Below, in pieces: positions 10,353-28,042 of a DNA stretch of 64,000 nt. A program made the translations under genes and the position numbers. The notes under the pieces are model-generated. The model saw only the letters and a list, made by a program, of their open reading frames with translations, had not been told where the DNA came from and did not search any database. Source of the DNA: Actinomycetes bacterium. GTDB taxonomy: Bacteria; Actinomycetota; Thermoleophilia; Solirubrobacterales; 70-9. The stretch lies in the NCBI GenBank assembly GCA_016861045.1, contig BOKP01000002.1, positions 310,001-374,000 on the forward strand. Reading direction: 5' to 3'. Numbering within the stretch: the stretch's first letter is position 1; each line of letters begins with the position of its first letter.

Positions 10353-11104
10353 AGGATCTCCTCGAGCGGCCGGAGCTCAACCCGCTCGCGGGCGTGGGCG
10401 CGCTCGACCGCGCGCTCGAGCCCGCGCATGGTCGTCCCGGGCGCGGCGTAGTAGCGGAGGAGATCGACGCAGCGAGCCCTGCCCCAGGCGCGGACGATGC
10501 CCTCGAGGCGGACCGGCGCCTTCGGCGTGAGCTCGACCTCGATCGCGACCACCTCGCCCGCGCCGAGCAGGACGAGGTCGGGGCGGTGAAGCTGCGGGGA
10601 GCCGTCGGGCCGCTGGCCAACCGTCGCACTCGCCAGGGTCCGCCGCTCGAGGCGCTCGGCGGCGCGGATCTCGCGCTCGCTCAGAAGCTCGGCGTCCACT
10701 CCCTTTGGCAGTCGGACCGCCGCCCACCCGCAGGCGAGCCAGTGCGCGGCGAGCTCGGGACTCAGCCTCGCGACCGGCAAGGCCAGATCCGCGTAGCGGA
10801 GGCCGCGCGGGGTGGCGCGCAGCAGAGCAGGCTCTCCATGCAGCAGGTAGACGCGGTCGAGGAGGCCGCCCTCGATGCAGGCCGCCACCCGCCGGTAGGC
10901 GACGGTGCGGCCGAGGTCGAAGCGCTCGCGGACCTGCTCCAGCGTCGCCGCTCCCAGCCGCCCGACCCAGCGGACGATCTCGCGGTCGCGCCGCGAAGCC
11001 CCACCGAGGCCGAGACCCAGCCGCTGATCGCGCGGATCAACCGCAGCCAGCCGGAGCGCCCGCTCGGCGAGCCGGGCCGGCTGGGTTGGGGCGATCGCTT
11101 CCAT
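10349..11104 (-). CDS. Replic_Relax-like winged-helix/nuclease-like protein, candidate relaxase
   Basis: 251 residues from the second of two adjacent ATGs (11107 and 11104). The second was chosen because it lies 7 nt from the -10 box, as in the sister promoters. The N-terminal half is a winged-helix region (RLGAATLEQVRERFDLGRTVAYRRVAACIEGGLL). The C-terminal half holds RPDLVLLGAGEVVAIEVELT, a PD-(D/E)xK-like pattern, then a segment KAPVRLEGIVRAW. This layout matches the replication-relaxation family. No classical relaxase (MobA, TraI, MobF) was found in the element, which makes this the best candidate; direct evidence of nicking is absent. Confidence 0.6.
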   Translation of the reverse strand: MEAIAPTQPARLAERALRLAAVDPRDQRLGLGLGGASRRDREIVRWVGRLGAATLEQVRERFDLGRTVAYRRVAACIEGGLLDRVYLLHGEPALLRATPRGLRYADLALPVARLSPELAAHWLACGWAAVRLPKGVDAELLSEREIRAAERLERRTLASATVGQRPDGSPQLHRPDLVLLGAGEVVAIEVELTPKAPVRLEGIVRAWGRARCVDLLRYYAAPGTTMRGLERAVERAHARERVELRPLEEIL

Positions 11105-11111
11105 CATGGAA

Positions 11112-11140
11112 TACGTCGCGCGAAAGGAAAGAAAGTCCAA
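11112..11140 (-). promoter_or_regulatory. element promoter 1: TTGGACT-N15-CGACGTA
   Basis: Minus-strand TTGGACT (11140-11134), 15-nt spacer, CGACGTA (11118-11112), then 7 nt to the ATG at 11104. Same boxes and spacing as 22865-22893 and 28014-28042. Predicted to drive the Replic_Relax-coupling-HTH-integrase-methyltransferase operon as a leaderless mRNA. Confidence 0.75.
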
Positions 11141-11157
11141 GGTGACTTGAGCAGCGC

Positions 11158-11421
11158 TCAGCCGAGGACCCGGATCGAGGCCGGATCGGCAAGGAGCACC
11201 GTCCGCCCGCGCCAGCCGATCGCGAGCGGGTCGGAGACCTCGATCTCCTCGCCGACCTCTGGCAGCCGCAGCTCCTCGCTCGGCTCGAGGAAGAGGACGA
11301 CATCCTCGAAACACCGCTCGTAGGGGCCCTCGTCGACCATGACTCGGAGCTCACAGCAGATCGAGTCGAGGGTCTCGTAGGTCTCCGGCGCTCGCGTGAC
11401 CTGTCCGATCAGGGGGTTCAT
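11158..11421 (-). CDS. hypothetical small protein
   Basis: 87 residues, ATG start. Not recognised. It holds two adjacent cysteines (SICCELRV) near the N-terminus, an acidic middle, and a beta-rich end (IEVSDPLAIGWRGRTVLLADPASIRVLG). It stands between the 121-residue gene and the Replic_Relax-like gene, whose promoter begins 18 bp after its stop. Probably a transfer-associated accessory protein; nothing more can be said. Confidence 0.6.
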   Translation of the reverse strand: MNPLIGQVTRAPETYETLDSICCELRVMVDEGPYERCFEDVVLFLEPSEELRLPEVGEEIEVSDPLAIGWRGRTVLLADPASIRVLG

Positions 11422-11559
11422 CTGGTCCTCCTCGGCCCTGGTGGGCTCGGCAGTTGACTTCTTGCGAAGCGTCCGAAGCCGACCCCGTCGGCCACATTCA
11501 GCGGAGAAAGGAGGCGAATGCCGAGCGCCGAGGGCCGGGCTGGGAGCCGACCCCCCGGA

Positions 11560-11925
11560 CTAGCGATCGCGACCGCTCGGGATCTCCTCGACCTCGACCA
11601 GGACGCCGATCCGGAGCTCGATCGCGACCAGGCGCCACTCGAGCCCCGAGCGTGAGTCGCGGTAGCGCTCGAGGATCGCGCGAGCGAGCGCCGACTCCGC
11701 GATCCGCAGCGACGCCTCGCCCACCGACAGCGCCTGCGAGCGCCGCGGCGCGTAGCCGAAGCTCCAGCTACGTCCGAGGCGGCCGGCGAGGGTGAGGAAG
11801 GTCCCCGGCCCGCCGAGCGGGGAGAGCTCGACCCCGACCCAGCGGCCGGAGAGCGCGGCGAGCGCCCGTGAGGCCGCCTCAAAGTCGAGGAGGTACCGCT
11901 CGCTCGGTTCGGGCAGGTCCCTCAT
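11560..11925 (-). CDS. hypothetical protein
   Basis: 121 residues, ATG start. Not recognised. It looks like a mixed alpha/beta domain with a Gly-rich loop (LGGPGTFLTLAGRLGRSWSFGYAP) and ends with beta strands WRLVAIELRIGVLVEVEEI. No signal peptide or membrane segment. It follows the sigma-factor gene by 49 bp, so the two may be one operon. The 138 bp between its stop and the next gene holds no clear feature. Confidence 0.6.
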   Translation of the reverse strand: MRDLPEPSERYLLDFEAASRALAALSGRWVGVELSPLGGPGTFLTLAGRLGRSWSFGYAPRRSQALSVGEASLRIAESALARAILERYRDSRSGLEWRLVAIELRIGVLVEVEEIPSGRDR

Positions 11926-11974
11926 GCTCGTGAAACCCCGGCGGCGATGGGTGCGCCCCTGGCGCCCCGAGGTC

Positions 11975-12538
11975 TCAGTCGGACTCGATGAGCCGGCGAT
12001 TGGCCCGCCCGACCCGCTTTCGGATCGCGCGGGTGCTGAGCCCGGTGAGCTCGGAGACCTCGGCGTGGCTGTAGCCGGCGGCGATCAGCACCGCGACGGT
12101 GCGCTCCTGCTCGGGGAGGCGGCCAAGCAGCTCGCGCGCCTCCCCGCGCTCCTCGGCGGACAGCAGCAGCTCGAGCGGGCCCGGCGCGCTCGGATCGGAA
12201 AGCCCGATCTCCGCCTCGGAGCCGAGCCGGTCGGAGCTCTCGCGGGCGGGTGGCGCCGCGTTGCGGCTCTCCTTGCGCCGGTGGCGGCGGTGGAGCTTGA
12301 AGACGCGGTTGCGGACACAGCGGGCCGCGTAGGCGACCACGTGCGCGCGCTCGTGGGGGCCGGGGAAGGAGCGGAGGACATCGAGCAGGGCGTCCTGGAC
12401 GACGTCGTCGGCGGCATCGGCGCTCGCGCCCCAGCGCTGGGCGAGCGCGGCGAGCCAGCTGTAGCGCTCGCGAGCGAGGTAGTCGGCGAGGGGGCGATTT
12501 CGGGCGGGGTCTCGGTTCGGTGTCGGTTGATCGGCCAT
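11975..12538 (-). CDS. RNA polymerase sigma factor, ECF-like
   Basis: 187 residues from ATG 12538. Region 2 lies at about residues 25-85 (DAADDVVQDALLDVLRSF, then YAARCVRNRVFKLHRR), followed by a polar linker. Region 4 is PEQERTVAVLIAAGYSHAEV followed by SELTGLSTRAIRKRVGRANR. Known: binds core RNA polymerase and recognises -35/-10 boxes. Inference: it or the second sigma factor at 26590-28005 may read the TTGGACT/CGACGTA promoters. Its own upstream region has a 7-bp hairpin (12551-12567) that recurs before the ArdC-like gene. Confidence 0.85.
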   Translation of the reverse strand: MADQPTPNRDPARNRPLADYLARERYSWLAALAQRWGASADAADDVVQDALLDVLRSFPGPHERAHVVAYAARCVRNRVFKLHRRHRRKESRNAAPPARESSDRLGSEAEIGLSDPSAPGPLELLLSAEERGEARELLGRLPEQERTVAVLIAAGYSHAEVSELTGLSTRAIRKRVGRANRRLIESD

Positions 12539-12550
12539 AGGCCGCCGACC

Positions 12551-12567
12551 GCACGGCTTTGCCGTGC
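12551..12567 (-). repeat. GCACGGC-NNN-GCCGTGC hairpin, copy 1
   Basis: 7-bp perfect stem with 3-nt loop, 12 bp upstream of the sigma-factor ATG. The same stem (different loop) occurs at 23913-23929, upstream of the ArdC-like gene on the same strand. Confidence 0.6.
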
Positions 12568-12712
12568 CACACTGAGGCGGCCGGCCGTGAGACCGGCTCG
12601 AGCCCGCGACCCAGGCCGGGATCGCTCCCTCGGCTGGCTCCCTCACCCTCGCCACAACGCTGCGCCGTGGCCTCGCGGGGGCAGGCGGGACGGCGCCGGG
12701 CTTCTTCTGCCC

Positions 12713-12910
12713 GTGAGCGTCGTCCTCGTAGCGATCGTCCTGCTCTGGCTCAGCGCCGTCGGCGTCTGGCCGCTATTGACAGCGCTGCTCGCCTGCTCGA
12801 CCGTGTGGGCCGGCGGGGGAACGGAGGCCGAGATGATCGTCGCCGGCGTGCTCGCCTGGATCGCGGTCGCGCTCGTGCGGCGACGGCTTCGGGCCCGTCG
12901 CTACGGCTAG
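12713..12910 (+). CDS. small two-TM membrane protein
   Basis: 65 residues from GTG 12713. Two hydrophobic segments (VVLVAIVLLWLSAVGVWPLL and MIVAGVLAWIAVALV), with a basic end RRRLRARRYG. It is the only plus-strand gene inside the conjugation block and is divergent from the sigma factor. No clear Shine-Dalgarno. Not recognised; it could be an entry-exclusion or pore-associated peptide, but this is a guess. The following 227 bp to the terminator hold no gene I can support. Confidence 0.4.
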   Translation: MSVVLVAIVLLWLSAVGVWPLLTALLACSTVWAGGGTEAEMIVAGVLAWIAVALVRRRLRARRYG

Positions 12911-13137
12911 ACCGACCGCCTGCAACCGCGCAGGCTTACGGTGCCGTCGTTCACCACCGCGGCGTCGTGGACCCCCGGGCGGCATGCCGAGATGCGACGG
13001 ACCGCGCACCCAAGCCACGATCCGCCGTGGGCAAGGCTACGGCCGCCTGCCTCCCCCGCACAGGCCGCATGCACTCTCGGGCTCGCGGCCCGACGGGGGC
13101 TGGGCCAAAGCTCTCCCGTTCGAGGCCGAAGAATGAC

Positions 13138-13160
13138 GCGGGGCCCATTCCGGGCCCCGC
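13138..13160 (-). terminator. hairpin terminator after ssb
   Basis: GCGGGGCCC, loop ATTCC, GGGCCCCGC: a 9-bp perfect stem 28 bp downstream of the ssb stop. On the minus strand it is followed by GTCATTCTTCGG, only moderately T-rich. Confidence 0.65.
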
Positions 13161-13187
13161 GCCGTCGGTCGTGGGGATCTGCCGCGA

Positions 13188-13559
13188 TCAGAACGGGATG
13201 TCGACCTCGTCCGACCCCTCCTCCGAGGAGTCCTCCTCGGCCGACCTCGATCCGTTGGCGGAGCCGAGGAACTCGACCCGGCCGACGACCGAGTGCTTGG
13301 AGCGCCGGGAGCCGTCCTCGGCCTCCCACTCGCGGTAGAGCAGGCGGCCGTCGACGGCGACCTGCCGACCCTTGCTCAGATGAGCAGCGCAGGCCTCGGC
13401 CTGGCGGTCGAAGCAGGCGACATCGACGTAGGTCGGCGGCTTCTCGGGACCGTTTGAGACCGCGATCCGAAGATCGCAGACCGCGCGGCCGTCCTGGGAC
13501 TCGATGTGGCCGAGCTCGGGATCCTTGGTGAGCCGGCCTACCAGTGCGACGGAGTTCAT
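13188..13559 (-). CDS. ssb: single-stranded DNA-binding protein
   Basis: 123 residues from ATG 13559 with AAGGAGA 6-12 nt upstream. The OB-fold (MNSVALVGRLTKDPEL, DLRIAVSNG, YVDVACFDRQAEACAAHLSKG, VDGRLLYREWE) is complete. The tail is acidic and ends DEVDIPF, the conserved C-terminal hook that binds partner proteins. Known: mobile elements often carry their own SSB to protect transferred single strands. Its start overlaps the stop of a short upstream frame (13556-13624). Confidence 0.93.
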   Translation of the reverse strand: MNSVALVGRLTKDPELGHIESQDGRAVCDLRIAVSNGPEKPPTYVDVACFDRQAEACAAHLSKGRQVAVDGRLLYREWEAEDGSRRSKHSVVGRVEFLGSANGSRSAEEDSSEEGSDEVDIPF

Positions 13560-13624
13560 CTTCCGTCTCCTTTCCCCGCCGTAGCGGGCGTCGTGGACTT
13601 TGCGAGCAAGCCACCTCCCGGCAT
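13556..13624 (-). CDS. possible 22-codon leader peptide upstream of ssb
   Basis: ATG 13624 to a TGA that overlaps the ssb ATG as ATGA (22 codons, beginning MPGGGLLAK). Upstream is a degenerate relative of the element promoter: GTGGACT at 13657-13651 and GTA at 13635-13633, 8 nt from this ATG, but with a spacer 4 nt shorter than in the three clear copies. May couple ssb translation to a leaderless start. ssb also has its own Shine-Dalgarno, so the frame may be irrelevant. Confidence 0.35.
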   Translation of the reverse strand: MPGGGLLAKSTTPATAGKGDGR

Positions 13625-13713
13625 CGCCGGGATACAAACGCGAAGCAGGAAGTCCACGCGACCGCCGGCGGGAAGGAGCGAAGCGAACCCCTCGCGCTGC
13701 CGGCTCGCCGCGA

Positions 13714-14868
13714 TCACGCTCGCTCCCCGGGAGCCGGGAAGGCCATCACCCAGCGGGCCGGCGGGCGTAGGGGCCCCGAGCCGAACGACGAGCTCGCCCA
13801 GGAGACGTGGATGTGTGCCGGACAGCCGCCGTCGCAGGTGCGCGGGGAGCCATGGCTTGGGTAGCCGTCGTAGCCGATGAACTGGATCGCGGGGACCAGC
13901 GGGCAGAGGGGCTTGGAGCCCGAGGCCGCGCAGGAGCGCCGCCAGCCGAGGTCGGCGGCCAGGCGACCGGCCGAGCGGTCCCAGACCGCCTGCGAGGCAA
14001 TGTCCCCGGCCGGGACCATGTCGAGCGCGGTCCCGTCGCCGTGGGTGGCGTGGCCAGACTCGCGCGCGGCGGTGACCCGCAGCTCGTAGGTGCGGAGGAT
14101 CCAGACCGCGTTGTCATAGAGGCGCGCGTCGATCGGCTGCGGCGCGTAGCCCGCGGCCATCAGGCCGCGCGGCAGCGTCCGGAACTCGCGCGGCTCGTAG
14201 AGACGAACCGCCCGCCCGAGCTCCGCCGCGGCGGCCTCGGGCCCACAGCTCGCCTCGGCGACCGAGCCGACGTCGCCGAAGCGCTTCGCCCACCGCAAGA
14301 CGTCGCGCACGTACCAGTCGGCGTGGTTGTAGGCGAAGATCGCGCGGTACCAGTCGCGCGGCGCTCCTGACGCAGACAGGTAGTTGGCGGCGCCGAAGAT
14401 CGCGTCGTCGGGATCGTAGCGGTCCTTGGTGCCGTCGCCGTCGCCGTCGACCCCGTAGGCGGCCCAGGTGGGGCCGAGGAACTGCATCGGCCCGCCGGCG
14501 CCGGCGAAGTTCTCGCCGGAGCGGACGCCCGGCAGCGGCGAGCGGCCGAAGTCGGTCTCGACCTTGTGGATCGCAGCGAGGATCGCGGGGCCGCGGACGC
14601 CGAGCGCGAAGCGCTCGGCCGCGCCACCGTAGGTCGGGACGTACTGGCCGGGAACGCCGCGGACGCTGCCGGCCTCGGCCTCCGCCGGAGCGCAGGCGCC
14701 GCTGGCGGGACCGACCAGGGTCGAGCCCATCCCGGCCACGGCGAGAACGGCGAGGAAGGCCGCGGCCGCCCCGGCCGCGATCCGTCCCCACGATCCGCCG
14801 CCGGAGCGTCGACCGCGGCGGCCCTCGCCGAGCCCGACGCGACCGCTGATCGAGGCCGAGGCGCTCAC
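13714..14868 (-). CDS. two-domain peptidoglycan hydrolase (lytic transglycosylase plus M15-like peptidase)
   Basis: 384 residues. N-terminal membrane anchor at about 28-52, then a transglycosylase domain with catalytic Glu in AAIHKVETDFG, GPMQFLGPTW and the Ca-loop-like DGDGDGTKDRYDPDDAIFGAANYL. The C-terminal part has SGHATHGDGTALDM and AHIHVSW, spaced like the His-Asp-His zinc ligands of M15/VanY peptidases. Known: VirB1-type hydrolases open the wall for the conjugation channel. Last gene of the transfer operon, overlapping the preceding one by 4 bp (GTGA). Confidence 0.8.
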   Translation of the reverse strand: MSASASISGRVGLGEGRRGRRSGGGSWGRIAAGAAAAFLAVLAVAGMGSTLVGPASGACAPAEAEAGSVRGVPGQYVPTYGGAAERFALGVRGPAILAAIHKVETDFGRSPLPGVRSGENFAGAGGPMQFLGPTWAAYGVDGDGDGTKDRYDPDDAIFGAANYLSASGAPRDWYRAIFAYNHADWYVRDVLRWAKRFGDVGSVAEASCGPEAAAAELGRAVRLYEPREFRTLPRGLMAAGYAPQPIDARLYDNAVWILRTYELRVTAARESGHATHGDGTALDMVPAGDIASQAVWDRSAGRLAADLGWRRSCAASGSKPLCPLVPAIQFIGYDGYPSHGSPRTCDGGCPAHIHVSWASSSFGSGPLRPPARWVMAFPAPGERA

Positions 14869-15467
14869 AGCCCGATCCCCGCCACCCGCCAGCCCGCGGT
14901 AGTGCGGCGGAGCTCGATCGCGATCGGGTCTGGCCGACCGCCGTGAATGACGCGGCCGACGAGCTCGACCCGCGCCAGCCGCCCGCCCTCGGACTCGGCG
15001 GGCAGGAGCTCCAGCCGCCCAAGGCGAGCGCGCTCCGGCGGCGCCCCGCGCGGGGGGCGCGGCGGCCTTCGGAGCAGCGAGCTCGCGAGCCTCGGCGTCG
15101 CCGTCCGCCGCAGCACTCTCGCAGCCGGCTGTCCGAGCTCGTAGCGGCTGAGCGCCGAGTGGAAGCGGCGGGCGGTCGGCTCGACCACGCGCTCGACTCG
15201 CCGCCAGCGGCGCAGCGTCGCCGCGGTCGGGCCGGGCTCGCCCCGGGGATCCTCGCGCCGGAGCTGCTCGCGCCGGCGGGCATCCGCCCGCTCGCTGAGG
15301 CCCCCGAGCAGGCGAGCGGCATCGGGAGAGTCAGCCCCGGGTGAGCCCTCGGCGGCGATCGTCCGCCTACCGCCAGGCCCATCGCCAGTGGAGGTCAGAA
15401 GCAGCGCCGCGAGGGCCAAGAGAGCCAGCGCGATGACCAGCAGCGCGAGCCTGCGGCCGCGACTCAC
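14865..15467 (-). CDS. membrane-anchored transfer-operon protein, unknown
   Basis: 200 residues, GTG start overlapping the VirB6-like gene. One N-terminal membrane segment (LALLVIALALLALAALLLTS), then an Arg-rich external region and a beta-rich end (LARVELVGRVIHG, IAIELRRTTAGWRVAGIGL) that looks like a SnoaL/TcpC-type small domain. Its coupling to VirB6-like and hydrolase genes makes a structural role in the channel likely. No family recognised with confidence. Confidence 0.65.
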   Translation of the reverse strand: MSRGRRLALLVIALALLALAALLLTSTGDGPGGRRTIAAEGSPGADSPDAARLLGGLSERADARRREQLRREDPRGEPGPTAATLRRWRRVERVVEPTARRFHSALSRYELGQPAARVLRRTATPRLASSLLRRPPRPPRGAPPERARLGRLELLPAESEGGRLARVELVGRVIHGGRPDPIAIELRRTTAGWRVAGIGL

Positions 15468-17866
15468 CGGCTCACTCCTCGACGCGGCGAGGGCGCGCGG
15501 TGGGAGCGGCGCTCGCGCCGCGCCGCGGCCTCCGCCCCGCGCAGCTGACGGCGGCCCTCGGCCTCGCCGCGGGCCAGCTCGCGGCGGAAGCCGCGCTGGC
15601 GCCGCGGGTCGACCGCTCCCTCGGGGCGGTCGGGGATCGCGCCGAAGGCGAGCCGGTCGGCGCGGAGCTCACGCGCCACCCGGCCGTGTGCCTCCTCGCG
15701 CTCGCGGCCCGTGAGCGCCTCGTAGCGCTCGGGCGAGAGCCCCACCCGCCAGGCATGGGCGCCCGAGTCGAGGGGCCGGTCGACCTCGCGGCGGATCAGC
15801 TCGCGGCCCTCGGCGAGCTCGCGCCCGCCCCAACGGCCGCCGCGCGAGCGCTCGCGCTCCTCCGCCCGCCCGACGAACGCGGCCGCCGAGCGGGCGCGCT
15901 CTGACTGCGCGGCGATCTCGTGCCGAAGCTCGCGCTCCCGCTCGCCGAGCCGCTCGGCCCGCTCCCATGCCTCCGCGCCGAGCCCGTGGCGAGCATCACC
16001 GCCCTCCGAGCCCGAGGCGGCCGCCGCGCTTCCGAGCAGCGCCCGGCGCTCAGCCGCGACCGCGCCGAGCTCGGCCTTGCGCTCGCGCTGGCGCTCGACC
16101 ACCTGCCGCTCGGCCTCGTAGCGGGCGTCGAGCCGCCGCTCGGCGCGGCGGTCGAGCTGGCCGCGGGCGAGTCGGCTCGTGCCCTCGGCCCGGTCGGCTG
16201 CGCGAGCTCCGAGGAAGCCCCCGGCCGCAGCGCCGGCGGCGCCCCCTCCCGCCCCGGCGGCGGCTCCGAGCGGTCGGGCGATCGCGCGCCCGAGGCGAAT
16301 CCCGCCATAGAGGCCGGTGAGCCCCTCGAGCCGGCCGCCGCCGCCCTCGCCGGAGCCCGGCAGCGAGATCGCGGCGATCAGCTGCTCGCGCTTCAGGAAG
16401 ACGGCCCACCACAGCGCCGCCATCACCAGAAACGACATCAGCGCCCCCACGCCGCCGCCGCCGCGGACCAGCGAGGCGACGGTCGTCGTCGCCAGAAGGA
16501 CGACCGAAAGGATCGCCGCGTAGACGAGCTTTGAGAGCAGCGCCCCGAGCAGGGTCGTCGCCCAAAAGCCAAAGGCGCGGCGACCTCCCTCGCCGAAGAC
16601 CGGCAGAAAGAGCGCCAACGGCGTCGAGAGCACAAGCACGAAGGCGACCGCGGTCTGGGTGAAGATCCGGACCGCGAGCCAAGCCAGCAGCGCGATCCCG
16701 CCGAGCAGGCCGAGAGCGATCAGCGCGACCAAGGGCAGCCGCGTCCAGGCGCCGCCCCCGCCCTGGATCGCCATGTAGCCGGCGTAGGGGTGGTCGTCGG
16801 CGAACTCGTCCCAGAGCGAGTCGCGAGCGGGCGATCCCGGCGAGCTCCGAAGCCAGATCTCGGCGTTGGTCTCGGGCCGCGGTGCGAGCGGCGCCAAATC
16901 CTTACAGTTGACGTCGCCGCCGAAGGCGGCGGCCTTCGCGAGCTCGGCGACGACCCGCTCGGGCAGCGAGCGCAGGTAGGCGTAGTCGAGGCAGGCGGTC
17001 TTGTCCGCCTCCTCGAGCAGCTTCGGGTCCGGAGGCTTGAGCGCCCAGTCGACGTTGGAGAAGTTGAGCGCGGCGAAGCCGGGCATCGTCATCGCCTCCC
17101 AGACCTCGGCCGTCGCCTCCGCGTAGGTGGCGTCGGGGTCGCGGAGCGAGCCCGCCTGCGGCGCGGCGATGACCGAGGTCGCCGCCTGGTTGGCGAGCTC
17201 GGTCGCCCGCCCGACGCTTTGGTCGGGAGCGTGGATCACCCACAGCGCCGCGACGATCAGAACGACCGAGAGCAGGGCGCCGCCGATCGCCCCGGCGGCG
17301 TCGCGGCGGACGAGCCCACGCCAGATCCCAGCCGCCCCGATCGCGACCATCGCCGCCACCAGCCAGGGCGAGGTGAAGGCCCGGTAGAAGCGCTCGAGGC
17401 CGCGCGAGATCTCGGCCATCGTCTGGTTATGGCCGAAGGGGTTGAGCTCGAAGGCCCAGCCGAGCAGGGTCAGCACCAGGTTGAGGACGAAGAGCAGCGC
17501 GAGCCAGATCGCGTTCGCGATCTGGGCCAAAAGCGCCTGGAAGTTGCCGACGATGTTGTCGAGGCCGGTGTCGATGTGGGCCTCGAGGCCGTAGTTGGAG
17601 GCCGGGTAGCGGCCCTCGGGGGTGCCCGTCATCCGGCAGTTGCGCCGCTCGGCGCGGCGCAGGCCCTCGGAGCAGAGCGGGTTCTCGACGACCAGCGGGT
17701 TGGCGCTGCCGTAGCCGGCGTTCTGCTCGCCGCTGACCTCGACCGCACCGCCGCCGTCCGGCACCCCGCGCTTGCCGTCGGGCTTGGCAAGAGCGGGCGG
17801 CGCCGCGGCGGCCGCGACGATGAGGCAAGCGAGGAGCGCCAGGCTCCTAACCAGCGCCCGGCGCAT
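15464..17866 (-). CDS. VirB6/TrbL-like polytopic channel protein
   Basis: 800 residues. Signal peptide (ALVRSLALLACLIVAAAAAPPALA), a 100-residue external part with four Cys, then about seven hydrophobic segments between roughly 110 and 470. A long highly charged Arg/Glu-rich cytoplasmic tail follows (about 520-800). Known: VirB6/TrbL-type proteins form the inner-membrane part of the type IV channel. It overlaps the VirB4-like gene by 20 bp. The extended charged tail is longer than in typical VirB6 proteins. Confidence 0.75.
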   Translation of the reverse strand: MRRALVRSLALLACLIVAAAAAPPALAKPDGKRGVPDGGGAVEVSGEQNAGYGSANPLVVENPLCSEGLRRAERRNCRMTGTPEGRYPASNYGLEAHIDTGLDNIVGNFQALLAQIANAIWLALLFVLNLVLTLLGWAFELNPFGHNQTMAEISRGLERFYRAFTSPWLVAAMVAIGAAGIWRGLVRRDAAGAIGGALLSVVLIVAALWVIHAPDQSVGRATELANQAATSVIAAPQAGSLRDPDATYAEATAEVWEAMTMPGFAALNFSNVDWALKPPDPKLLEEADKTACLDYAYLRSLPERVVAELAKAAAFGGDVNCKDLAPLAPRPETNAEIWLRSSPGSPARDSLWDEFADDHPYAGYMAIQGGGGAWTRLPLVALIALGLLGGIALLAWLAVRIFTQTAVAFVLVLSTPLALFLPVFGEGGRRAFGFWATTLLGALLSKLVYAAILSVVLLATTTVASLVRGGGGVGALMSFLVMAALWWAVFLKREQLIAAISLPGSGEGGGGRLEGLTGLYGGIRLGRAIARPLGAAAGAGGGAAGAAAGGFLGARAADRAEGTSRLARGQLDRRAERRLDARYEAERQVVERQRERKAELGAVAAERRALLGSAAAASGSEGGDARHGLGAEAWERAERLGERERELRHEIAAQSERARSAAAFVGRAEERERSRGGRWGGRELAEGRELIRREVDRPLDSGAHAWRVGLSPERYEALTGREREEAHGRVARELRADRLAFGAIPDRPEGAVDPRRQRGFRRELARGEAEGRRQLRGAEAAARRERRSHRAPSPRRGVSR

Positions 17867-20327: not shown

Positions 20328-20962
20328 CGCACCCGCACCTCACGCCCGGCCGGGACCGTCAGGGTCCGCGCGCGAGCGAGCGGTCCTCGCCACTCGCCGG
20401 CCGCCGAGAGCGTGAGCCGCCGGGCGGCGGCGAGACGGTCCCGCCCCTCGCCGCCGCGGCCGCCCTCAGCCCGCGCCCGGGCCGGGTAGCGGAGGGTGAG
20501 TCGCGCCGGTCCCCGCACCCGGCCGGCCCGAAGCGTCGGCCCGTCGCCCACCGCGGCGATCTCGACCGCCTCCACCGGCGCCAGCTCCGCGCCCGCCGGC
20601 GGGCAGCAGCGGAGCCCCGACAGCGTGCGGGGGGAGGCCAGGTAGCGAGCCGCTGCGAACAGCATCCGGTGCGGCGGCCGACCGTCGATCCGCAGCGAGG
20701 CCATCGCCCAGCCACCGAGCGCCGGCACGGCCAGCAGGCGCAGCGAGTCGGGCAGCAGTCCGAGCAGGGGTCCGACGAGCGGCAGCCCGGAGGCGAGGAG
20801 CAGGACGAGCAGCCAGGCGAGCGCGTAGCCGACCCCTCGCACCGGCACCCCGTGCGGGGTGGGCAGCCGCCATCGGTCTAGCCGGAAGATCCGCCGCTCG
20901 ACCTCGTCGACGACGCCGCGGTAGGAGCGGACGGCGACGCGAGCGGAGGGACGCTCGGACAC
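20324..20962 (-). CDS. TcpE/PrgI-like conjugal transfer membrane protein
   Basis: 212 residues, GTG start. Two close membrane segments (ALAWLLVLLLASGLPLVGPL and LLAVPALGGWAMASL) followed by RPPHRMLFAAARYL, the TcpE/PrgI pattern, then a soluble beta-rich C-terminal part. Known: these small proteins sit beside the VirB4 ATPase in Gram-positive conjugation systems; the gene order here agrees (coupled directly to VirB4). Confidence 0.7.
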   Translation of the reverse strand: MSERPSARVAVRSYRGVVDEVERRIFRLDRWRLPTPHGVPVRGVGYALAWLLVLLLASGLPLVGPLLGLLPDSLRLLAVPALGGWAMASLRIDGRPPHRMLFAAARYLASPRTLSGLRCCPPAGAELAPVEAVEIAAVGDGPTLRAGRVRGPARLTLRYPARARAEGGRGGEGRDRLAAARRLTLSAAGEWRGPLARARTLTVPAGREVRVR

Positions 20963-20975
20963 TAGACGCGACCCC

Positions 20976-21299
20976 TCAGGCGATCCGCTGCCAGAAGCCC
21001 TTGATCAGGCTCTCGGCGGTCTCGGGCGCGAAGACGAAGAGCCCGAGGAAGACCGCGATCGCCGCCGCGGTGACCGCGACGCCGATCTCCCGCTTCATGA
21101 ACGCGTAGAGGCCGGCGATAGCGACCAGGACGATGATCACCGGCCCGAGGATCCCGGCGAAGAGGTCGGCGGTCTTCTCGCCGAGCCGCTCGACCCGGCC
21201 GCCGCCGCGTCCCTGCGCCTGAGCCTCCGCGACCCAGACGCCGAGCACGAGCCAGCTCGCCCCCAGCGCTGCGAGTGGTGCCTTCAGTGTCCTTCTCAT
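20976..21299 (-). CDS. VirB2/TrbC-like small membrane protein
   Basis: 107 residues. Signal-like N-terminus (LAALGASWLVLGVWVAEAQA), then two membrane segments (ILGPVIIVLVAIAGLYAFM and AVTAAAIAVFLGLFVFAPE) and a short end. This two-helix layout after a leader is the VirB2/TrbC pilin-like pattern. Translationally coupled (ATGA) to the TcpC-like gene upstream. Confidence 0.7.
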   Translation of the reverse strand: MRRTLKAPLAALGASWLVLGVWVAEAQAQGRGGGRVERLGEKTADLFAGILGPVIIVLVAIAGLYAFMKREIGVAVTAAAIAVFLGLFVFAPETAESLIKGFWQRIA

Positions 21300-22168
21300 C
21301 TGTCCCTCCTCGTGGAGTCGGTTGGCACGGTCTCGATGAAGCTCACGAGGGGGCGGCCGCGGCGGGGCTCGATCCCGAGGCGGTAGCTGAGGGTGTAGGC
21401 GGCGCCGTCGGCGCCGACCGCCTCGACGGTGACCGCCACCGGCGAGCGCTCGGGCGCGCCGGCCCAGGCCAGCTCGAGCACCTCGCGGACCCGGAGTTCG
21501 ATCGCGGGAAGGGAGACCGAAGCGCCGGGCAGGAGGTCGGCGCGGAGGTTCGCGGGCTCGCTGGCGAGGTAGTTGGCCACGACCCGGCGGGCGACCTCGG
21601 CGACGGCCGGGTCCTCGAGCTCAGCTCGCTCGGGAAGCCGGCCGCGCGCCACAGCCGGCGCGCCGACGATCGCCGGGTAGTCGAGGAGCTGGAGCGCCCC
21701 GGCGGAGGTGCGGCGGAGGCGCAGCGCGAGATGCAGCGGCTCGGGCGCAACGTCGGTCATCGCCGCGACCACGACCGAGCGCTCGCCGCCGCCGAGGGGA
21801 GCGCTCTCGGCGACCTCGGCCCAGAGCACGTCCCGAGAGCCGCGGCGGGGCACGAAGCCCCCGTCGGGCGCGAGGTCCTCGGGCAGAAGGCCCGCGAGCT
21901 CGCGCTCGCGGGCGCCGGGGCGGGCGGCGTCGTAGCTCAGATAGGCGCGCGCCAGGCGAAGCGCGTAGCTCTCGGCGGCGGGATCTGCGGTCGAGGCCGG
22001 TGTGGGCGAAGGCGTCGGCTCGGCGGGAGCGACGGCCGCACGGAGCCCGGCAACGGCGAGGATCGCGATCGCGCCCACCGCAAGGTATCGGACGGAGCAT
22101 GCGGCGAGCCGCCGCATGCGCGCCGAGCGTCGCAGGCGCTCGACCCGTTCGGGGGGCTCGGCGCCCAC
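21296..22168 (-). CDS. TcpC/VirB8-like conjugal transfer protein
   Basis: 290 residues, GTG directly after the TAG of the preceding gene. Cytoplasmic basic start, one membrane segment (VRYLAVGAIAILAVAGLRAAV), then an external region with two similar beta-rich stretches (SYALRLARAYLSYDAA..., VVAAMTDVAPEPLHLALRLRRT...; VARRVVANYLAS..., VAVTVEAVGADGAAYTLSYRLGI). Two tandem NTF2-like domains are the hallmark of TcpC. Known: TcpC anchors the channel in the envelope. Confidence 0.7.
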   Translation of the reverse strand: MGAEPPERVERLRRSARMRRLAACSVRYLAVGAIAILAVAGLRAAVAPAEPTPSPTPASTADPAAESYALRLARAYLSYDAARPGARERELAGLLPEDLAPDGGFVPRRGSRDVLWAEVAESAPLGGGERSVVVAAMTDVAPEPLHLALRLRRTSAGALQLLDYPAIVGAPAVARGRLPERAELEDPAVAEVARRVVANYLASEPANLRADLLPGASVSLPAIELRVREVLELAWAGAPERSPVAVTVEAVGADGAAYTLSYRLGIEPRRGRPLVSFIETVPTDSTRRDR

Positions 22169-22819
22169 CTAGGGACCGAACTCCCTATAGAGGATCTCGC
22201 CGCGCGAGAGCGGCTCCGGGGTGGGCTTGGCGGAGGCAGCCTCGCTTGGCGCAGGAGCCGGGCTAGGCACGGGCGCGGGGTTCGGCGCCTGGACCGAGAC
22301 CGGGCCCGGGTCGGGGCTGACGCGGCCGGCATCCGAAGGCGCGGCCTGCACCCGCTTCGGCTCGGCCTCGGGAGCCCGGTCCACCTTCCCGCGCTGAGCG
22401 GTCCTCGCTCCGATCCGGCGCTCGGGCCGGCGCCGGCCAGCGTCGGAGACCGGTCGTGGGGCAGCGATCTCGCTCCGGAGCGTGGCCCGCCCTTCCGGCC
22501 TCTTTGGGACCGATGCCTCGTCGGACTCGGCCGAGAGGGCGGCAGCGACCATGGCCACAACGCCGAAGAAGAGAGCAAGCGCCGCGGCTGTGCGAATGCC
22601 ACCGGCGCGTCCGATCGCGTCGAGGATCAGGGGCCGGCGCCCGGGTCGCGCCGCGTGGGCCTCGGCGCTCGCCGGGGCCGACCCCCTCTCCTCGTCCGCG
22701 GGCCCGCCCCCGTCAGGAGGAATCGCGAGCGGGTCCTCGGCATCCGAGAGCTCCACGGCGGGCTCGTCGAGGAGCTGCTCTTCTCCGAGCTCGAAGACGT
22801 CGTCGCTGCGCCGTCTCAT
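22169..22819 (-). CDS. single-pass Pro-rich membrane protein ending REFGP
   Basis: 216 residues. Acidic cytoplasmic part (1-80), one membrane segment (IRTAAALALFFGVVAMVAAALSA, about 84-106), then an external Arg/Pro/Ala-rich stretch (PNPAPVPSPAPAPSEA) and the C-terminus ILYREFGP. First large gene of the transfer operon. The last five residues are identical to those of the tethered sigma factor at 26590-28005, which has the same cytoplasm-membrane-proline linker order. Function unknown. Confidence 0.75.
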   Translation of the reverse strand: MRRRSDDVFELGEEQLLDEPAVELSDAEDPLAIPPDGGGPADEERGSAPASAEAHAARPGRRPLILDAIGRAGGIRTAAALALFFGVVAMVAAALSAESDEASVPKRPEGRATLRSEIAAPRPVSDAGRRRPERRIGARTAQRGKVDRAPEAEPKRVQAAPSDAGRVSPDPGPVSVQAPNPAPVPSPAPAPSEAASAKPTPEPLSRGEILYREFGP

Positions 22820-22857
22820 CCGTCGGACCTTGGGGCCGTGTCGGTCGCGTCTGCCAT
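22816..22857 (-). CDS. 13-codon leaderless leader peptide of the transfer operon
   Basis: ATG 22857 (MADATDTAPRSDG) with its TGA overlapping the ATG of the 216-residue gene as ATGA. The ATG lies 7 nt from the CGACGTA box, the same distance at which the other two promoters have their first gene. The mRNA would therefore begin at or near this ATG, and the downstream start would be reached by termination-reinitiation. Confidence 0.55.
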   Translation of the reverse strand: MADATDTAPRSDG

Positions 22858-22864: not shown

Positions 22865-22893
22865 TACGTCGCGGCAGCGGCGCGATAGTCCAA
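22865..22893 (-). promoter_or_regulatory. element promoter 2: TTGGACT-N15-CGACGTA
   Basis: TTGGACT at 22893-22887, 15-nt spacer, CGACGTA at 22871-22865, then 7 nt to ATG 22857. Drives the VirB-like operon. Identical boxes and spacing to 11112-11140 and 28014-28042. Confidence 0.75.
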
Positions 22894-22933
22894 CCCGATT
22901 TCAGCGATGGGTTGGGGAACCTCGCGAGTGGCC

Positions 22934-23857
22934 TCAGTCGGTGCCCGACGACTCGTCGAGCCCCATGGCTGCCTCGAGCCGAGCGGCGAGCGCGTCGATC
23001 AGCCGGGCGGCCTCGGCGACCACCTCGAGCTTGCCGTCCTCGCCCCAGCCGGCGCAGTAGGCGACTGCCTCGCCCGAGGTGTCGAGCCCGGCGGCCGCGG
23101 CAGCTACGTGCCCGGCACACTCGACCACGCACTCCTCCTCGGCGTAGTCGAGGGCGACCCTGCCGCCGACGCTGTCGCCGCCGCCTCGCTCTGCCAACAG
23201 CGCGTGCGCCAGCTCGTGCAGCAGGGTGCGCACCATCGCGTTCGGATCGTCGGGCGCGACAACGATCCGACTGTCGCGGCGGCGGTAGAAGCCCCTCGCC
23301 GCCCCCGGGACGGACTCGATGTCCACCCTGACTCCGATCGAGTCCGCGAACCCCCTTAGCTTCGGCAAGAGGTGCGCATGCGAGTCCCCGCTGAGCGGCT
23401 CCGCTTGCGGAGGCTCGATCGCGACCGCGTCGGGTCCGGCCTCGACCTGGGAGCGGTCGAAGACCGAGACGCTCCGAAAGCCGACGATCCGACGGACCCT
23501 CTCCCCCGTTCCCTCGTCCTCGATCCACCGCGCGAGCGGGGCCATGATCGCGTATCCGCGCTCGCCACGGCGGACCTGGTAGCCATGCTCAGACCACCAG
23601 CGGTAGCCGGCGACGTAGTTGAGCTCGGTGCCGCGCGCCCAGGCCTCGCAGGCCAAGAGGAGCTGGTTGGTGGTCGAGTAGCGCGCCAGGCCGTTGTGGC
23701 GCCGCAGCGCGATCCAGCGCCGCCATCCCTCGGAGTCCTGGAGCGCTCGCGTTGCCTCCTCGAGGCGCCGACGGTCGCGCTCCCGGCGCCCCTCGTGCTC
23801 GGCGTTGGCGGATGGCCGCTTGCGGTCCGATCGGCGCTGCGTGGGGCTGGACTGCAT
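22934..23857 (-). CDS. ArdC-like anti-restriction protein
   Basis: 307 residues from ATG 23857, preceded by GAGGAGG. The N-terminal part (WRRWIALRRHNGLARYSTTNQLLL, ELNYVAGYRWWSEHGYQVRRGERG) matches the ArdC N-terminal ssDNA-binding domain. The C-terminal part has the zincin motif HELAHALL at about 214-221 and a later Glu (ECVVECAGHV). Known: ArdC-type proteins enter with conjugating single strands and protect against host restriction. Meaningful here because the same island also carries a restriction system. Confidence 0.85.
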   Translation of the reverse strand: MQSSPTQRRSDRKRPSANAEHEGRRERDRRRLEEATRALQDSEGWRRWIALRRHNGLARYSTTNQLLLACEAWARGTELNYVAGYRWWSEHGYQVRRGERGYAIMAPLARWIEDEGTGERVRRIVGFRSVSVFDRSQVEAGPDAVAIEPPQAEPLSGDSHAHLLPKLRGFADSIGVRVDIESVPGAARGFYRRRDSRIVVAPDDPNAMVRTLLHELAHALLAERGGGDSVGGRVALDYAEEECVVECAGHVAAAAAGLDTSGEAVAYCAGWGEDGKLEVVAEAARLIDALAARLEAAMGLDESSGTD

Positions 23858-23912
23858 CTCTGCCTCCTCGGGCTCTCGGCCCCGCCCGTCGCGAGGCCTT
23901 CGCCCGACCCCC

Positions 23913-23929
23913 GCACGGCGAAGCCGTGC
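23913..23929 (-). repeat. GCACGGC-NNN-GCCGTGC hairpin, copy 2
   Basis: Same 7-bp stem as 12551-12567 with loop GAA instead of TTT, 55 bp upstream of the ArdC-like start. Confidence 0.6.
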
Positions 23930-24019
23930 AACCATCGGGAGGGCAGGCCGGAGACGGGCGGCGGCGTGCCCTAAGGCCGGCCGCAGTCTGGCCGACCGTC
24001 TCAGCCTCGATGGGCTCGG

Positions 24020-24637
24020 CTACCCGCCGCGAACAGCGAGCACGGCTAGCGTGGGATTCTCGATCCGGGCGTCACCGGAGAGCTCCTGGCAGGCAAGTGA
24101 GACGAGGTGCCGGCCGGCCGCCACGCGCTGAGGAGTGACGATGGTTCGGGCGAAGCCGTCGGTGGCCGAGATCGAGGTGTTGTCGCTCGCTTCCTCGCCG
24201 GGGGCGGCACTGAGCGCGCTCGGCGCTCCGTCGACCCGAACCTGACAGACGGCTTTCGAGGGGCCCCCTTCGCTCCGGTGCCCTCCCGTGGCGATCGCCA
24301 GTAGCTGCGCCGGGCGCTCAAGCTCGAGCGCGGCCTCGGCGCAAGCGTCGAACGCAGGGCCCGGGTTGCAGCCGACCGGCTCGTCCCCTGCGACCGCGAC
24401 AAGTGAGGAGAGGTCCAGAGAGCGCTCCTTGATCTGCCGCCCGCCCAGAGCGTTGGGCTTCACGTCGATTCCCCGGACCGCCTTCTTGTTCTTGAGGTCA
24501 GCGCTGCGGATCGAGCCGTTGCGGATATCGGAGGAGCCGATCTTCGAGGCCGCGTAGGCCCCGCCGCCGCCGATCACGCCGACCAGGGCGAGCGTCGCCG
24601 CCACGTTCGCGTAGCTCAGGTGCTCTCTGATCCTCAT
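24020..24637 (-). CDS. secreted protein with KIGSSDIRNGSI-type N-terminal repeat
   Basis: 205 residues, GGAGAG Shine-Dalgarno. Signal segment (ANVAATLALVGVIGGGGAYAA), then IGSSDIRNGSIRSADLKNKKAV, a beta-helix-like repeat start common on exported proteins of Thermoleophilia-type actinobacteria. A beta-rich domain with four Cys follows. Third gene of the sigma-factor operon. Role unknown; inference: surface factor made when the element is active. Confidence 0.6.
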   Translation of the reverse strand: MRIREHLSYANVAATLALVGVIGGGGAYAASKIGSSDIRNGSIRSADLKNKKAVRGIDVKPNALGGRQIKERSLDLSSLVAVAGDEPVGCNPGPAFDACAEAALELERPAQLLAIATGGHRSEGGPSKAVCQVRVDGAPSALSAAPGEEASDNTSISATDGFARTIVTPQRVAAGRHLVSLACQELSGDARIENPTLAVLAVRGG

Positions 24638-24697
24638 TCGACTCTCCGTTTCGATCGAGCCGCCGGCCTCATGCCGGCGGCATCCGCCTAGCCCTAA

Positions 24698-26563
24698 TCA
24701 TCGCGCTTTCACGACCACGCGTCGAGACTTCGAGCCCGACGGCGCCTTGTAGGGCCAGCGCTGCTCTCGGGCGACCTTGACTCGGAAGCGGAAGCGCGCG
24801 TCGCGCTCGTAGAAGGTCCCGAAGCGGTAGCGGAGCCGGTAGCGGCCGCGGTCGTTGGTCCGGAAGGCCTCGCGGACCGTGTTCCAGCTGCTCGGCCCCT
24901 CGCGGACCTGGAGCTCGACCAGCTTGCCGCCGGCCGGAATCCTGGCGCCGAGTCGGCCGACCTTGCCGCGGAAGACCACCGCCTTGCCGGCCCGTACCTT
25001 GCGCCTGGAGACGCGAAAGCTGGCGCGGCTTCTGACCGCGAGCCGGCCCGCGCTCGAGCGTCGGTTCAGGTACCGCGGCGTGCCCTCGTAGATCGCCGTG
25101 ACCGCGCGGGAGGGGCCCGCTGGGAGCTTTGAGGCGAAGCGGCCACGAGCGTCGGTTCGCACCTCGCGGACGCGACGATCGATCAGGGCGCCCGGACCGA
25201 AGTACTCCTCGATCCGCACCTCGTGGTTCCGCAGGGGCTCGCCCGAGCTGTCCATCAGGCGACCGGCGACGCGTGAGTCGGTCCCGTAGGAGACGGTCTG
25301 CCGAGGCGAGCCACCGGGCATGTGCGTGCTGAGACGCACGGGCTCGCGCAGCGGGAAGCTCAGCACCATCGGCTCGCCGTTAGCGCGGCTCGCGCTATCG
25401 GCGGCGTTGCCGGCCACGTCTGAAGCCTCGGCCTTGAACTCGTAGCGGCCGGGTGGGTACGAGGCGGAGTCGACCCGCGCGCGGAGCTCACCACCCTCGT
25501 GGCGCGTGGAGAGCGGCTCCCACTCGCTTTCGCCCTGCGCGCGAAACAGGATCCTGCCTGAGGCGACCCCTGAGTGCGGGTCGGAGACAGGAGCGCGGAT
25601 CAGCTCGGGATCGCTCGGATCCTGCTCGTTGGCGAACGCGAGCTGCGGCGGGGCGTTGTCGACCCAGACGGTCCGTTGATCGCACCTACGGTTGCCGGCG
25701 AAGTCGATCGCGCAGACGGAGGTCGCGTTGGCGCCGTTGCGGAAGGGTGCCCGGGTTGTGTCGGCGGTGAGCCTGAGCTCTCCGTTCGGGCCGCAAGGGA
25801 TGACGCGGCTCGAGAGCGCGGTGCCGGGGATCCTGCCCGGGCACTGGCCGTTCGTCAGTGCAAGCTGTGCGCCGTTCGTGGTAGCGACGATGCGTTCCAG
25901 CCCTGTGCCCTCATCGAGCGCAACCGCGGTGAGCCCATGGCTACCGCGCCGCCAGCCGGACGCCCACAGCGAGCCATCGAGGCCGCTGAAACTGGGATCC
26001 CGATAGTCGGCGACGGTCATCCGCACATTTCGCATCCAGGTCTTCGCCTGATCCGACCTCGGGCAGCCGCCGCCACGATCGCACCTCAGCCAGGCGACGA
26101 TCTGACTGGCCGGCGGGAACCGGAGCGCTATCGAGCGGAAGGGGGCAGCATCGGTCTGTCCGCTCACGATCCGCTTCGTCTCCCTGCCCGCGGCGTCGGC
26201 GGCGAAGATACGCGCGTGATGGCCTGAGTCGTTTCGGGCCTTGTACTGGAGAGAGGCACCGACGATCGCGAGCGGAGCGGGCGCCGACCAGCGAGCGAGC
26301 CCGAGCCGTCCGGTCTCGGCGTCCTTTACGTTGAGCAGCTTGAGCGCGTAGTCCTGGCTCGCTTCCGCGCAGAAGTTGTGGCCCTCGTAGGCGCGGCTGT
26401 CGCTGACGGAAGCCTGATGCCCTCGGTTGAGCGGGTCGCACTGAACGACCGTGTACTCCCCTCCGGCCGCGCTCGCAGTCGGGGCGTGCAGCCCGACCAG
26501 CGCCGCCGTGAGCATCGCCGCGACTCCGGCCACTCCGAGTCGCCTCCAACTGCTTGCGGTCAT
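24698..26563 (-). CDS. large secreted surface protein
   Basis: 621 residues from ATG 26563, chosen because GAAGGAGAT precedes it. Signal peptide LGVAGVAAMLTAALVGLHAPTASA. Then a Cys-containing N-terminal domain (VVQCDPLNRG, HNFCAEASQDY), a segment typical of Ig-like folds (VWVDNAPPQLAFANEQDPSD, FKAEASDVAGNAADSA), and two Ig/CNA-B-like repeats (VSYGTDSRVAGRLMDSSGEPL; FRVSRRKVRAGKAVVFRGKV). No LPXTG. It follows the tethered sigma factor by 26 bp. Inference: contact or adhesion protein of the element. Confidence 0.65.
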   Translation of the reverse strand: MTASSWRRLGVAGVAAMLTAALVGLHAPTASAAGGEYTVVQCDPLNRGHQASVSDSRAYEGHNFCAEASQDYALKLLNVKDAETGRLGLARWSAPAPLAIVGASLQYKARNDSGHHARIFAADAAGRETKRIVSGQTDAAPFRSIALRFPPASQIVAWLRCDRGGGCPRSDQAKTWMRNVRMTVADYRDPSFSGLDGSLWASGWRRGSHGLTAVALDEGTGLERIVATTNGAQLALTNGQCPGRIPGTALSSRVIPCGPNGELRLTADTTRAPFRNGANATSVCAIDFAGNRRCDQRTVWVDNAPPQLAFANEQDPSDPELIRAPVSDPHSGVASGRILFRAQGESEWEPLSTRHEGGELRARVDSASYPPGRYEFKAEASDVAGNAADSASRANGEPMVLSFPLREPVRLSTHMPGGSPRQTVSYGTDSRVAGRLMDSSGEPLRNHEVRIEEYFGPGALIDRRVREVRTDARGRFASKLPAGPSRAVTAIYEGTPRYLNRRSSAGRLAVRSRASFRVSRRKVRAGKAVVFRGKVGRLGARIPAGGKLVELQVREGPSSWNTVREAFRTNDRGRYRLRYRFGTFYERDARFRFRVKVAREQRWPYKAPSGSKSRRVVVKAR

Positions 26564-26589
26564 CAGATCTCCTTCGCGCATCGATCTAC

Positions 26590-28005
26590 CTACGGTCCGA
26601 ACTCACGCTGAACGGCCGAGCCTCCCCCGCCGCTACTGCCGGATCCACCGCTGCTGCTGCTCGTGGTGGGCTGCGGAGCGGTGGCCGAGACGACTCCAAA
26701 CTCCTGCTCGCTGGCGGGTGCGCTCGGCGCGGCCGTCTGCGGCGGCTCGGACGCCGAGGGCTCCGGCTCCGGGCTCTGCTCCGGCTCCGGCTCGGGGTCC
26801 TGCTTGGGAGCGGGCGTCGGCTCGGGAAGAGCGATCGGTTTGCTCTCCTCAAGGGGCACAGGCGCCGCTGGCTCGACGGCCTCGACGACCTTCGCGGGCG
26901 GCTTGTCGTCGCGATCCTCCTTGCCGCCGAGATCGGGCCCGATGCCGGGCACGACACCGGCGGCGACGCAGGCGGTGGCCGCGGCACCGGTGCCGATGCA
27001 GGCGGTGGCGATCTTGCCGGCGCCGCCAAGGCCAGCGAGCTTGGCGAGCGCTCCGCTGGCGGCGGCGCCGCTGCCCCGCGTACCGGCGGCGATCGTCGCG
27101 CTGGAGCTCGCCGCATCGCCCAGCTCGGCCGAGCGGCCGCCGGCGCCCGGCAGGTGCTCGCGGATCCGATCCGGCAGGGCAAGCAGCCGCTCGACGACGC
27201 TGGCGGATGCGTCCGGCTCGATCGTGATCGGCGTGAGCGCCGCGGCAGTCGACTCGTGTGCGGCGCGGAGCTCACGCGCGGTTGCCGCCGCGCGCGGATC
27301 GGTGCGGATGAGAAGCTCGGCGCGGCGGCGCTCGGGGGCGGAGGCGACGCCCGCAATGTAGGCGCCTAGCAGGGTGCGCTGAAGGCGGGCGAAGCGGCTG
27401 TCCTCGAGGTTGGCGGAGACCGTGTCGACGGCCCGGCGCAGCCGGTGCCGGTAGGTGCTCCGCGGAAGGCCAAGCCGTTCGCAGGCCTCCTCGGTCGAGA
27501 GGCGCTCGAAGAAGCGGACCCGGTAGGCGGCGCGGTGCTCGGCGCTCAGCTGCTCGACGGCCTCGATCGCGTGAGCCAGATCAACCCGGTGCTCGAGCCG
27601 CTCCTCGGCCGTCGCCTCGCGATCCTCGATCTCGGCGAAGATGCCGTCCGCAGGATCGGTCGAGGCCTCGCGGCGGTCGCGGACCAGGTCCCGCGCATCA
27701 CGCCAGGCGATCGTCCGCAGATAGCCGGCGAGGTCCGAGATCGCCTCGCCGCCGAGCCGCTTTCTGAGGACGGACTCCCAAGCCCCCTGGGCGATGTCCT
27801 CGACATCGTCGTGATCCAGCGTCCCGCGGAAGCGAGCTCGCAGGTACTCAACCAGCTCCGCCCTGATCGCGCCAACCTCTGAGTCCCGAAATCCGTTGCA
27901 TCCGACCACGCGCACCGCAGCGCCGTTGCTCCCCGCAGCGCGCTCCGCCCCGCCGTTCCGCTCGCCGGCCGGGCCGTCCTCCGTGATGCGCTCCGCGTTG
28001 GCCAT
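26590..28005 (-). CDS. membrane-tethered sigma factor with external tail ending REFGP
   Basis: 471 residues. Sigma region 2 (EYLRARFRGTLDHDDVEDIAQ, AGYLRTIAWRDARDLVRD) and region 4 (LSAEHRAAYRVRFFERL, then STEEACERLGLPRSTYRHRL) fill residues 1-210. A linker follows, then a hydrophobic Ala/Gly segment (KIATACIGTGAAATACVAAGVV, about 315-352), a Pro/Glu-rich stretch (EPTPAPKQDPEPEPEQSPEP) and the end AVQREFGP. The last five residues equal those of the transfer protein at 22169-22819. Its promoter is the same type as those of the transfer operons, so it may control itself and them. The membrane segment is weakly hydrophobic and needs confirmation. Confidence 0.75.
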   Translation of the reverse strand: MANAERITEDGPAGERNGGAERAAGSNGAAVRVVGCNGFRDSEVGAIRAELVEYLRARFRGTLDHDDVEDIAQGAWESVLRKRLGGEAISDLAGYLRTIAWRDARDLVRDRREASTDPADGIFAEIEDREATAEERLEHRVDLAHAIEAVEQLSAEHRAAYRVRFFERLSTEEACERLGLPRSTYRHRLRRAVDTVSANLEDSRFARLQRTLLGAYIAGVASAPERRRAELLIRTDPRAAATARELRAAHESTAAALTPITIEPDASASVVERLLALPDRIREHLPGAGGRSAELGDAASSSATIAAGTRGSGAAASGALAKLAGLGGAGKIATACIGTGAAATACVAAGVVPGIGPDLGGKEDRDDKPPAKVVEAVEPAAPVPLEESKPIALPEPTPAPKQDPEPEPEQSPEPEPSASEPPQTAAPSAPASEQEFGVVSATAPQPTTSSSSGGSGSSGGGGSAVQREFGP

Positions 28006-28013
28006 CTACCTCT

Positions 28014-28042
28014 TACGTCGCGAAACTCACCAGAAAGTCCAA
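28014..28042 (-). promoter_or_regulatory. element promoter 3: TTGGACT-N15-CGACGTA
   Basis: TTGGACT at 28042-28036, 15-nt spacer, CGACGTA at 28020-28014, then 8 nt to the ATG of the tethered sigma factor. Suggests autoregulation and a leaderless transcript. Confidence 0.75.

Follow-up and report, generated by a model that had tools for sequence, protein, structure and literature searches.

A candidate self-encoded sigma factor regulon with probable leaderless promoters in an integrative conjugative element of Solirubrobacterales

Introduction

The well-known regulators of conjugative elements are activators and repressors. This report concerns an integrative conjugative element in a 64,000-nucleotide stretch of DNA (hereafter the window; contig BOKP01000002.1, positions 310,001 to 374,000, assembly GCA_016861045.1) from a soil-type Actinomycetes bacterium of the order Solirubrobacterales, in which three operons begin with the same two-box motif. 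The motif most likely represents the promoters of sigma1, an extracytoplasmic function (ECF) sigma factor encoded by the element itself. No integrative conjugative element with such a sigma regulon was described in the open-access literature searched.

The predicted layout of sigma1 resembles that of the ECF52 and ECF53 families, and of ECF48, exemplified by SCO4117 of Streptomyces coelicolor, in which the ECF domain is joined within a single chain to an anti-sigma-like domain, a stretch that crosses the membrane, and an outer extension rich in Pro (PMC5826349, PMC8999054). ECF52 and ECF53 factors with this fused layout are thought to be activated by proteolysis (PMC8999054). Further points of likeness, predicted for sigma1, are the presence of the sigma factor's own gene in its regulon and the expectation that activation occurs by proteolysis (PMC5826349, PMC8999054). 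Whereas these families are chromosomal and control a developmental regulon, sigma1 is borne on an element, has lost its zinc ligands, and ends in a conserved EFG...EFGP tail. The C-terminal zinc-binding anti-sigma domain of ECF52/ECF53 is accordingly not found in it and, unlike in those families, no carbohydrate-binding domain was found in sigma1.

Two other systems are comparable in their regulatory logic. SigN, a sigma factor encoded extrachromosomally on the Bacillus subtilis plasmid pBS32, recognizes a consensus of its own and through it transcribes both its own gene and an element regulon, with positive feedback; however, it responds to a LexA/DNA-damage trigger, is not a fused membrane ECF protein, and controls replication, nucleotide metabolism, and cell death rather than transfer (PMC6751061). 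SigM of Mycobacterium smegmatis is described as an ECF sigma factor that is freed from a membrane anti-sigma factor and turns on DNA-exchange genes (ESX-4, cell contact), but it is chromosomal, acts in the recipient, and has a separate anti-sigma protein (PMC9514802).

Promoter Sites in the Element

The sequence TTGGACT-N15-CGACGTA occurs as three exact matches in the window, all on the minus strand and confirmed by reading the sequences; N15 was the sole matching spacing among the 10–20 tried. An earlier note, made from the sequence alone, had named three such sites with identical 15-nt spacing, and all three were recovered. The site at 28014–28042 precedes the sigma operon, with 8 nt between box 2 and the ATG at 28005, and that at 22865–22893 precedes the VirB type IV secretion system (T4SS) operon, with 7 nt to the ATG at 22857. 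The third, at 11112–11140, precedes an operon encoding a RepRelax-like protein, TraG, Xis, and an integrase, where tandem ATGs at 11107 and 11104 give a gap of 4 or 7 nt. The proposal that an ATG always lies 7–8 nt past box 2 therefore stands for the first two operons and is ambiguous for the third. Counted from the C of CGAC, the distances are 15 nt (sigma), 14 nt (VirB), and 11 or 14 nt (third operon).

The genome-wide motif search suggested in the earlier note returned the same three exact matches in the 2.7 Mb of the window's own genome, each inside the element and at an operon start, with none scattered elsewhere. Only the exact sites stand out, because allowing up to two mismatches (one site elsewhere at one mismatch, 18 at two) gave 22 matches in total against 15 for a reversed-pattern control. 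The boxes are short, which would favor their origin as chance repeats or as recent duplications of one stretch. Yet the three spacers are unlike one another, so that the sites are not recent copies; together with the confinement of exact matches to operon starts, and with equivalents in independent elements and in flanks that did not contribute to defining the motif, this makes such an origin hardly credible.

A 31-nt inverted repeat (CCGCAGCCGACCCCA..; 28111–28191) lies upstream of the sigma promoter. G027 has kept both the repeat and the promoter, and G022 has kept them in part (genomes other than the window's own, G000, are referred to by such numbers). The repeat is possibly an origin of transfer or a regulatory structure.

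Promoter Codes in Related Elements

VirB4 homologs were found in 42 of 399 genomes of the class, the matches in the VirB4 alignment being Solirubrobacterales genomes, and other promoter classes were located through homologs of VirB4 and sigma1. Common to the elements are a spacing that is always 15, a second box CGAC(N)TA, and the same downstream functions; the first box differs. In G022, whose VirB4 is 68% and sigma1 43% identical to those of the window, CCATACA-N15-CGAC(N)TA precedes the sigma, VirB, and TraG operons, with a fourth site before a RepRelax homolog, and the window-type box is absent from the element. In G244, GGGGAGT-N15-CGACTAAG is found at the sigma and VirB operons, with 34 of 40 positions identical between the two. 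A GAGGGGT class is represented by G259 and G411; in G259 a site is present at VirB and probably also at the sigma1 gene, where the candidate overlaps conserved coding sequence. Searched in extended form against the 399 genomes, the window motif yielded a single extra site, an orphan promoter in G027. The only other exact match to the motif in the family, in G023 (L021), lacked an ATG or GTG at the usual distance and was set aside.

Flanks of the G244 and G259 elements that had not been read previously were scanned after the motifs were defined. Each contained one site, which in G244 lies directly before a TrwC relaxase gene (GTG at 13 nt) and in G259 before xis-int (ATG at 12 nt). With one mismatch allowed, the G244 pattern found only its three sites in the 4.7-Mb genome, while the G022 pattern found three of its four sites in the G022 genome, missing the sigma site, whose -10 box differs. 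In G411 the GAGGGGT pattern identified four xis-int modules, with an ATG at 12–15 nt; in G259 it also picked up a remnant of an integrase gene. A region-pair test of the sigma and VirB operons was clear for G244 and did not exceed the null maximum for G259; for G259 and G022, whole-locus scans and genome searches took the place of this test. The dedicated element regulon envisaged in the earlier note is thus well supported by the three exact sites at operon starts and by four related elements arranged in the same way, some of whose sites come from stretches that did not define the motifs. What the DNA itself shows is where the sites lie, that they are unique, that their spacing is constant, that they stand at operon starts, and that other elements conserve them.

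Fixed spacing, a fixed distance to the start codon, a conserved -10 box, and an element-specific -35 box together fit a sigma promoter whose reader has a conserved region 2 and a diverging region 4. The boxes might instead be binding sites for an activator or repressor placed atop ordinary promoters: the element encodes helix-turn-helix (HTH) proteins, and the identity of the boxes as sigma promoters is argued from sequence. Nevertheless, two unlike half-sites with a fixed 15-nt spacing and a fixed start-codon distance would hardly accommodate a -10 element in addition, and variation of box 1 between elements against a constant box 2 is what sigma regions 4 and 2 would lead one to expect, which makes activator or repressor sites improbable.

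Start-Codon Geometry and Leaderless Initiation

In the leaderless mRNAs of Actinobacteria, the transcript begins at the start codon or close to it, which leaves no space for a Shine-Dalgarno sequence. An ATG or GTG lies 12–15 nt past the C of CGAC at 20 of 26 sites overall, and at 12 of the 14 sites not used for motif definition, against a null of 8% in both cases; for the latter set P is about 5e-12 if the sites are independent, a value that is optimistic because some G411 sites are homologous to one another. This geometry argues strongly for leaderless starts at most sites of the regulon, with transcription predicted to begin at the ATG or within about 3 nt of it. The predicted position of the start codon at or near the 5' end is shared with actinobacterial leaderless mRNAs, although leaderless promoters in that phylum are normally mixed with others, whereas the majority of sites in this single element regulon appear leaderless.

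The idea that the mRNAs start at the ATG is thereby strongly favored in general, but not for the first real gene of the VirB operon. A site and an ATG are present at the start of this operon, as had been claimed; the ATG, however, opens a 13-codon leader open reading frame (MADATDTAPRSDG, then a stop; 22816–22857, minus strand), which has a counterpart at the equivalent place in G022. Since the leader TGA overlaps the ATG of the following gene (22169–22819, minus strand), that gene is predicted to be leadered and probably translationally coupled. It encodes a transmembrane protein with the same REFGP end as sigma1.

The Candidate Reader

The sigma1 gene (26590–28005, minus strand) encodes an ECF sigma factor by profile (TIGR02937, 3.6e-15), with only sigma regions 2 and 4 and with ECF sigma factors as its best folds. 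The sigma domain is followed by a degenerate anti-sigma-like helical domain without zinc ligands, whose H..HC..C motif is kept in aligned chromosomal paralogs, and then by a conserved hydrophobic segment and the Pro-rich tail with the EFG...EFGP end, as judged by eye from an alignment in a part where the AlphaFold model is weak. One such paralog with the zinc anti-sigma motif lies at G000:C2:211362-212603 (L039, L045), followed by a secreted protein. No promoter was seen when the chromosomal paralogs were examined by eye, and a sigma1 scan of the genome contigs returned no relatives. Sigma1 shares its EFGP tail, with variants EFTP, EFAP, and EFSP, with its chromosomal paralogs and also with the first protein of the VirB operon (window; L025, L026, L029, L030, L038, L039, L040), and several sigma1 proteins have an inner EFG or EFD.

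Several observations connect sigma1 to the boxes. Its gene carries its own site in the window, G022, G244, and probably G259. Where an element has the CGAC box, region 2.4 of its sigma1 reads IAWRxAxD, a sequence that is absent, except in G424, from the sigma1-type proteins of elements without the box. Region 4.2 is near-identical in G259 and G411, which have the same -35 box. A second, soluble ECF sigma factor, Sig2 (11975–12538, minus strand), could alternatively read these promoters, with sigma1 as its target in a cascade or with both factors reading the same promoter. One sig2-type gene is present in the window, G022, G244, G259, G411, and a cassette on contig C1 of G000, often directly upstream of the relaxase or RepRelax site; moreover, the CCATACA box is common to G022 and the C1 cassette, whose Sig2 proteins are 70% identical, whereas window Sig2 goes with another box and has 33–38% identity to either of them. 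On the other hand, sig2 genes have no recognized site of their own, whereas sigma1 genes have one, and Sig2 region 2.4 is variable although the -10 box is constant. Sig2 is the less likely reader, but it is the main rival to sigma1.

Other points weigh against assigning the promoters to sigma1. Co-occurrence fails to single it out, because sig2 is present in most elements. G424 has the region 2.4 sequence with no recognized site, and no shared site was detected in G047, G232, or G373 (Paraconexibacter antarcticus, a cultured relative), which bear sigma1. Region 4.2 of the window and G022 proteins is 56% alike, yet their -35 boxes are wholly different. For G022, the sigma-to-VirB comparison was below the random maximum (28 vs. 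29), G022 being supported by four sites that follow one rule and by the search of genomes, and the AlphaFold model of sigma1 is weak past residue 255.

On balance, we assign a probability of roughly 0.68 to the reading that the three sites are promoters of an element-encoded ECF sigma factor, most likely sigma1, that would drive its own operon and the transfer operons in leaderless fashion. TTGGACT would be the -35 element and CGAC(G)TA the -10 element. In the proposed mechanism, sigma1 would be kept inactive by its own fused, membrane-anchored, anti-sigma-like C-terminal part until a signal outside the cell led to proteolysis and release. Released sigma1 would activate its own gene in positive feedback and turn on the T4SS and coupling-protein/xis/integrase operons together, committing the element to transfer. 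We infer the identity of the reader, the exact start sites, the release from the membrane, and the signal.

Organization of the Element

All genes of the three operons described below lie on the minus strand. The sigma operon continues from sigma1 with a secreted Ig/carboxypeptidase-regulatory-like protein that is its conserved partner (24698–26581), a second predicted exported protein (24020–24637), and an ArdC-like antirestriction protein (22934–23935). The T4SS genes (13714–22168) encode TcpC-like, small transmembrane, TcpE, VirB4, CD3337/EF1877-type transmembrane, and lytic transglycosylase proteins. Similar GC-rich hairpins (GCACGGC..GCCGTGCGG; GCACGTTTCGCGTGCGG) lie directly before ardC (23900–23960), sig2 (12530–12600, minus strand), and the sig2 gene of G022 (L123, near 7180, minus strand).

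The third operon, previously designated relaxase/coupling/integrase, does encode a VirD4/TraD-like coupling protein (8718–10352) and an HTH_17 Xis-like protein with a tyrosine integrase (7219–8721). Its supposed relaxase is a winged-helix/nuclease-like, RepRelax-like protein (10349–11107) with no Pfam or NCBIfam match, and no recognized relaxase was found with these databases among the scanned proteins of the element. A cytosine methylase gene is also present in this operon. Genes for an EcoRV-like endonuclease and a Vsr-like nuclease (window 4654–5974) adjoin a cytosine methylase gene on the element. The tyrosine integrase together with VirB4, the coupling protein, TcpE, and the transglycosylase identifies an integrative conjugative element. 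Part of tRNA-Met, 19 bp long, occurs twice without mismatch: at 2101–2119, probably an attachment-site copy, and at 52621–52639, a second copy within tRNA-Met (52598–52671). The two suggest that the element spans about 50 kb, and the cargo between them relates to heavy metals (P-type ATPases, MerB, and redoxins).

Promoter-Bearing Cassettes and Implications

The promoters also occur in cassettes without a T4SS or a nearby sigma1, namely the G411 xis-int modules, G000 C1, G000 C3, and G027. In the window's own genome, the G022 pattern has three one-mismatch places, two of them before RepRelax homologs, in cassettes at G000:C1:1043561-1045500 (site 1044434), which has its own sig2, and G000:C3 near 487483 (L136, L137, L138); no VirB4 homolog or sigma1 was found in the stretches read around them. 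Promoters in such surroundings suggest trans control, and the cassettes may be satellites responding in trans or decayed elements. A tentative extension, which we consider possible but doubtful, is that each element has a private sigma/promoter code with the same -10 and an exchangeable -35 box, and that small cassettes lacking transfer genes or a nearby sigma1 have taken over the -35 code of a complete element; their excision genes would then be switched on in trans whenever the helper element itself fires. Candidates for a captured code are the four G411 xis-int modules, two RepRelax modules that bear the G022 code (G000:C1:1044434 and G000:C3:487483), and the window-type orphan promoter of G027.

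If the reading centered on sigma1 is correct, a self-encoded sigma factor with a -35 code that has diverged between relatives would constitute a control layer separating co-resident elements. It would also provide orthogonal promoter/sigma pairs, and elements and possible satellites would be findable by promoter code alone.
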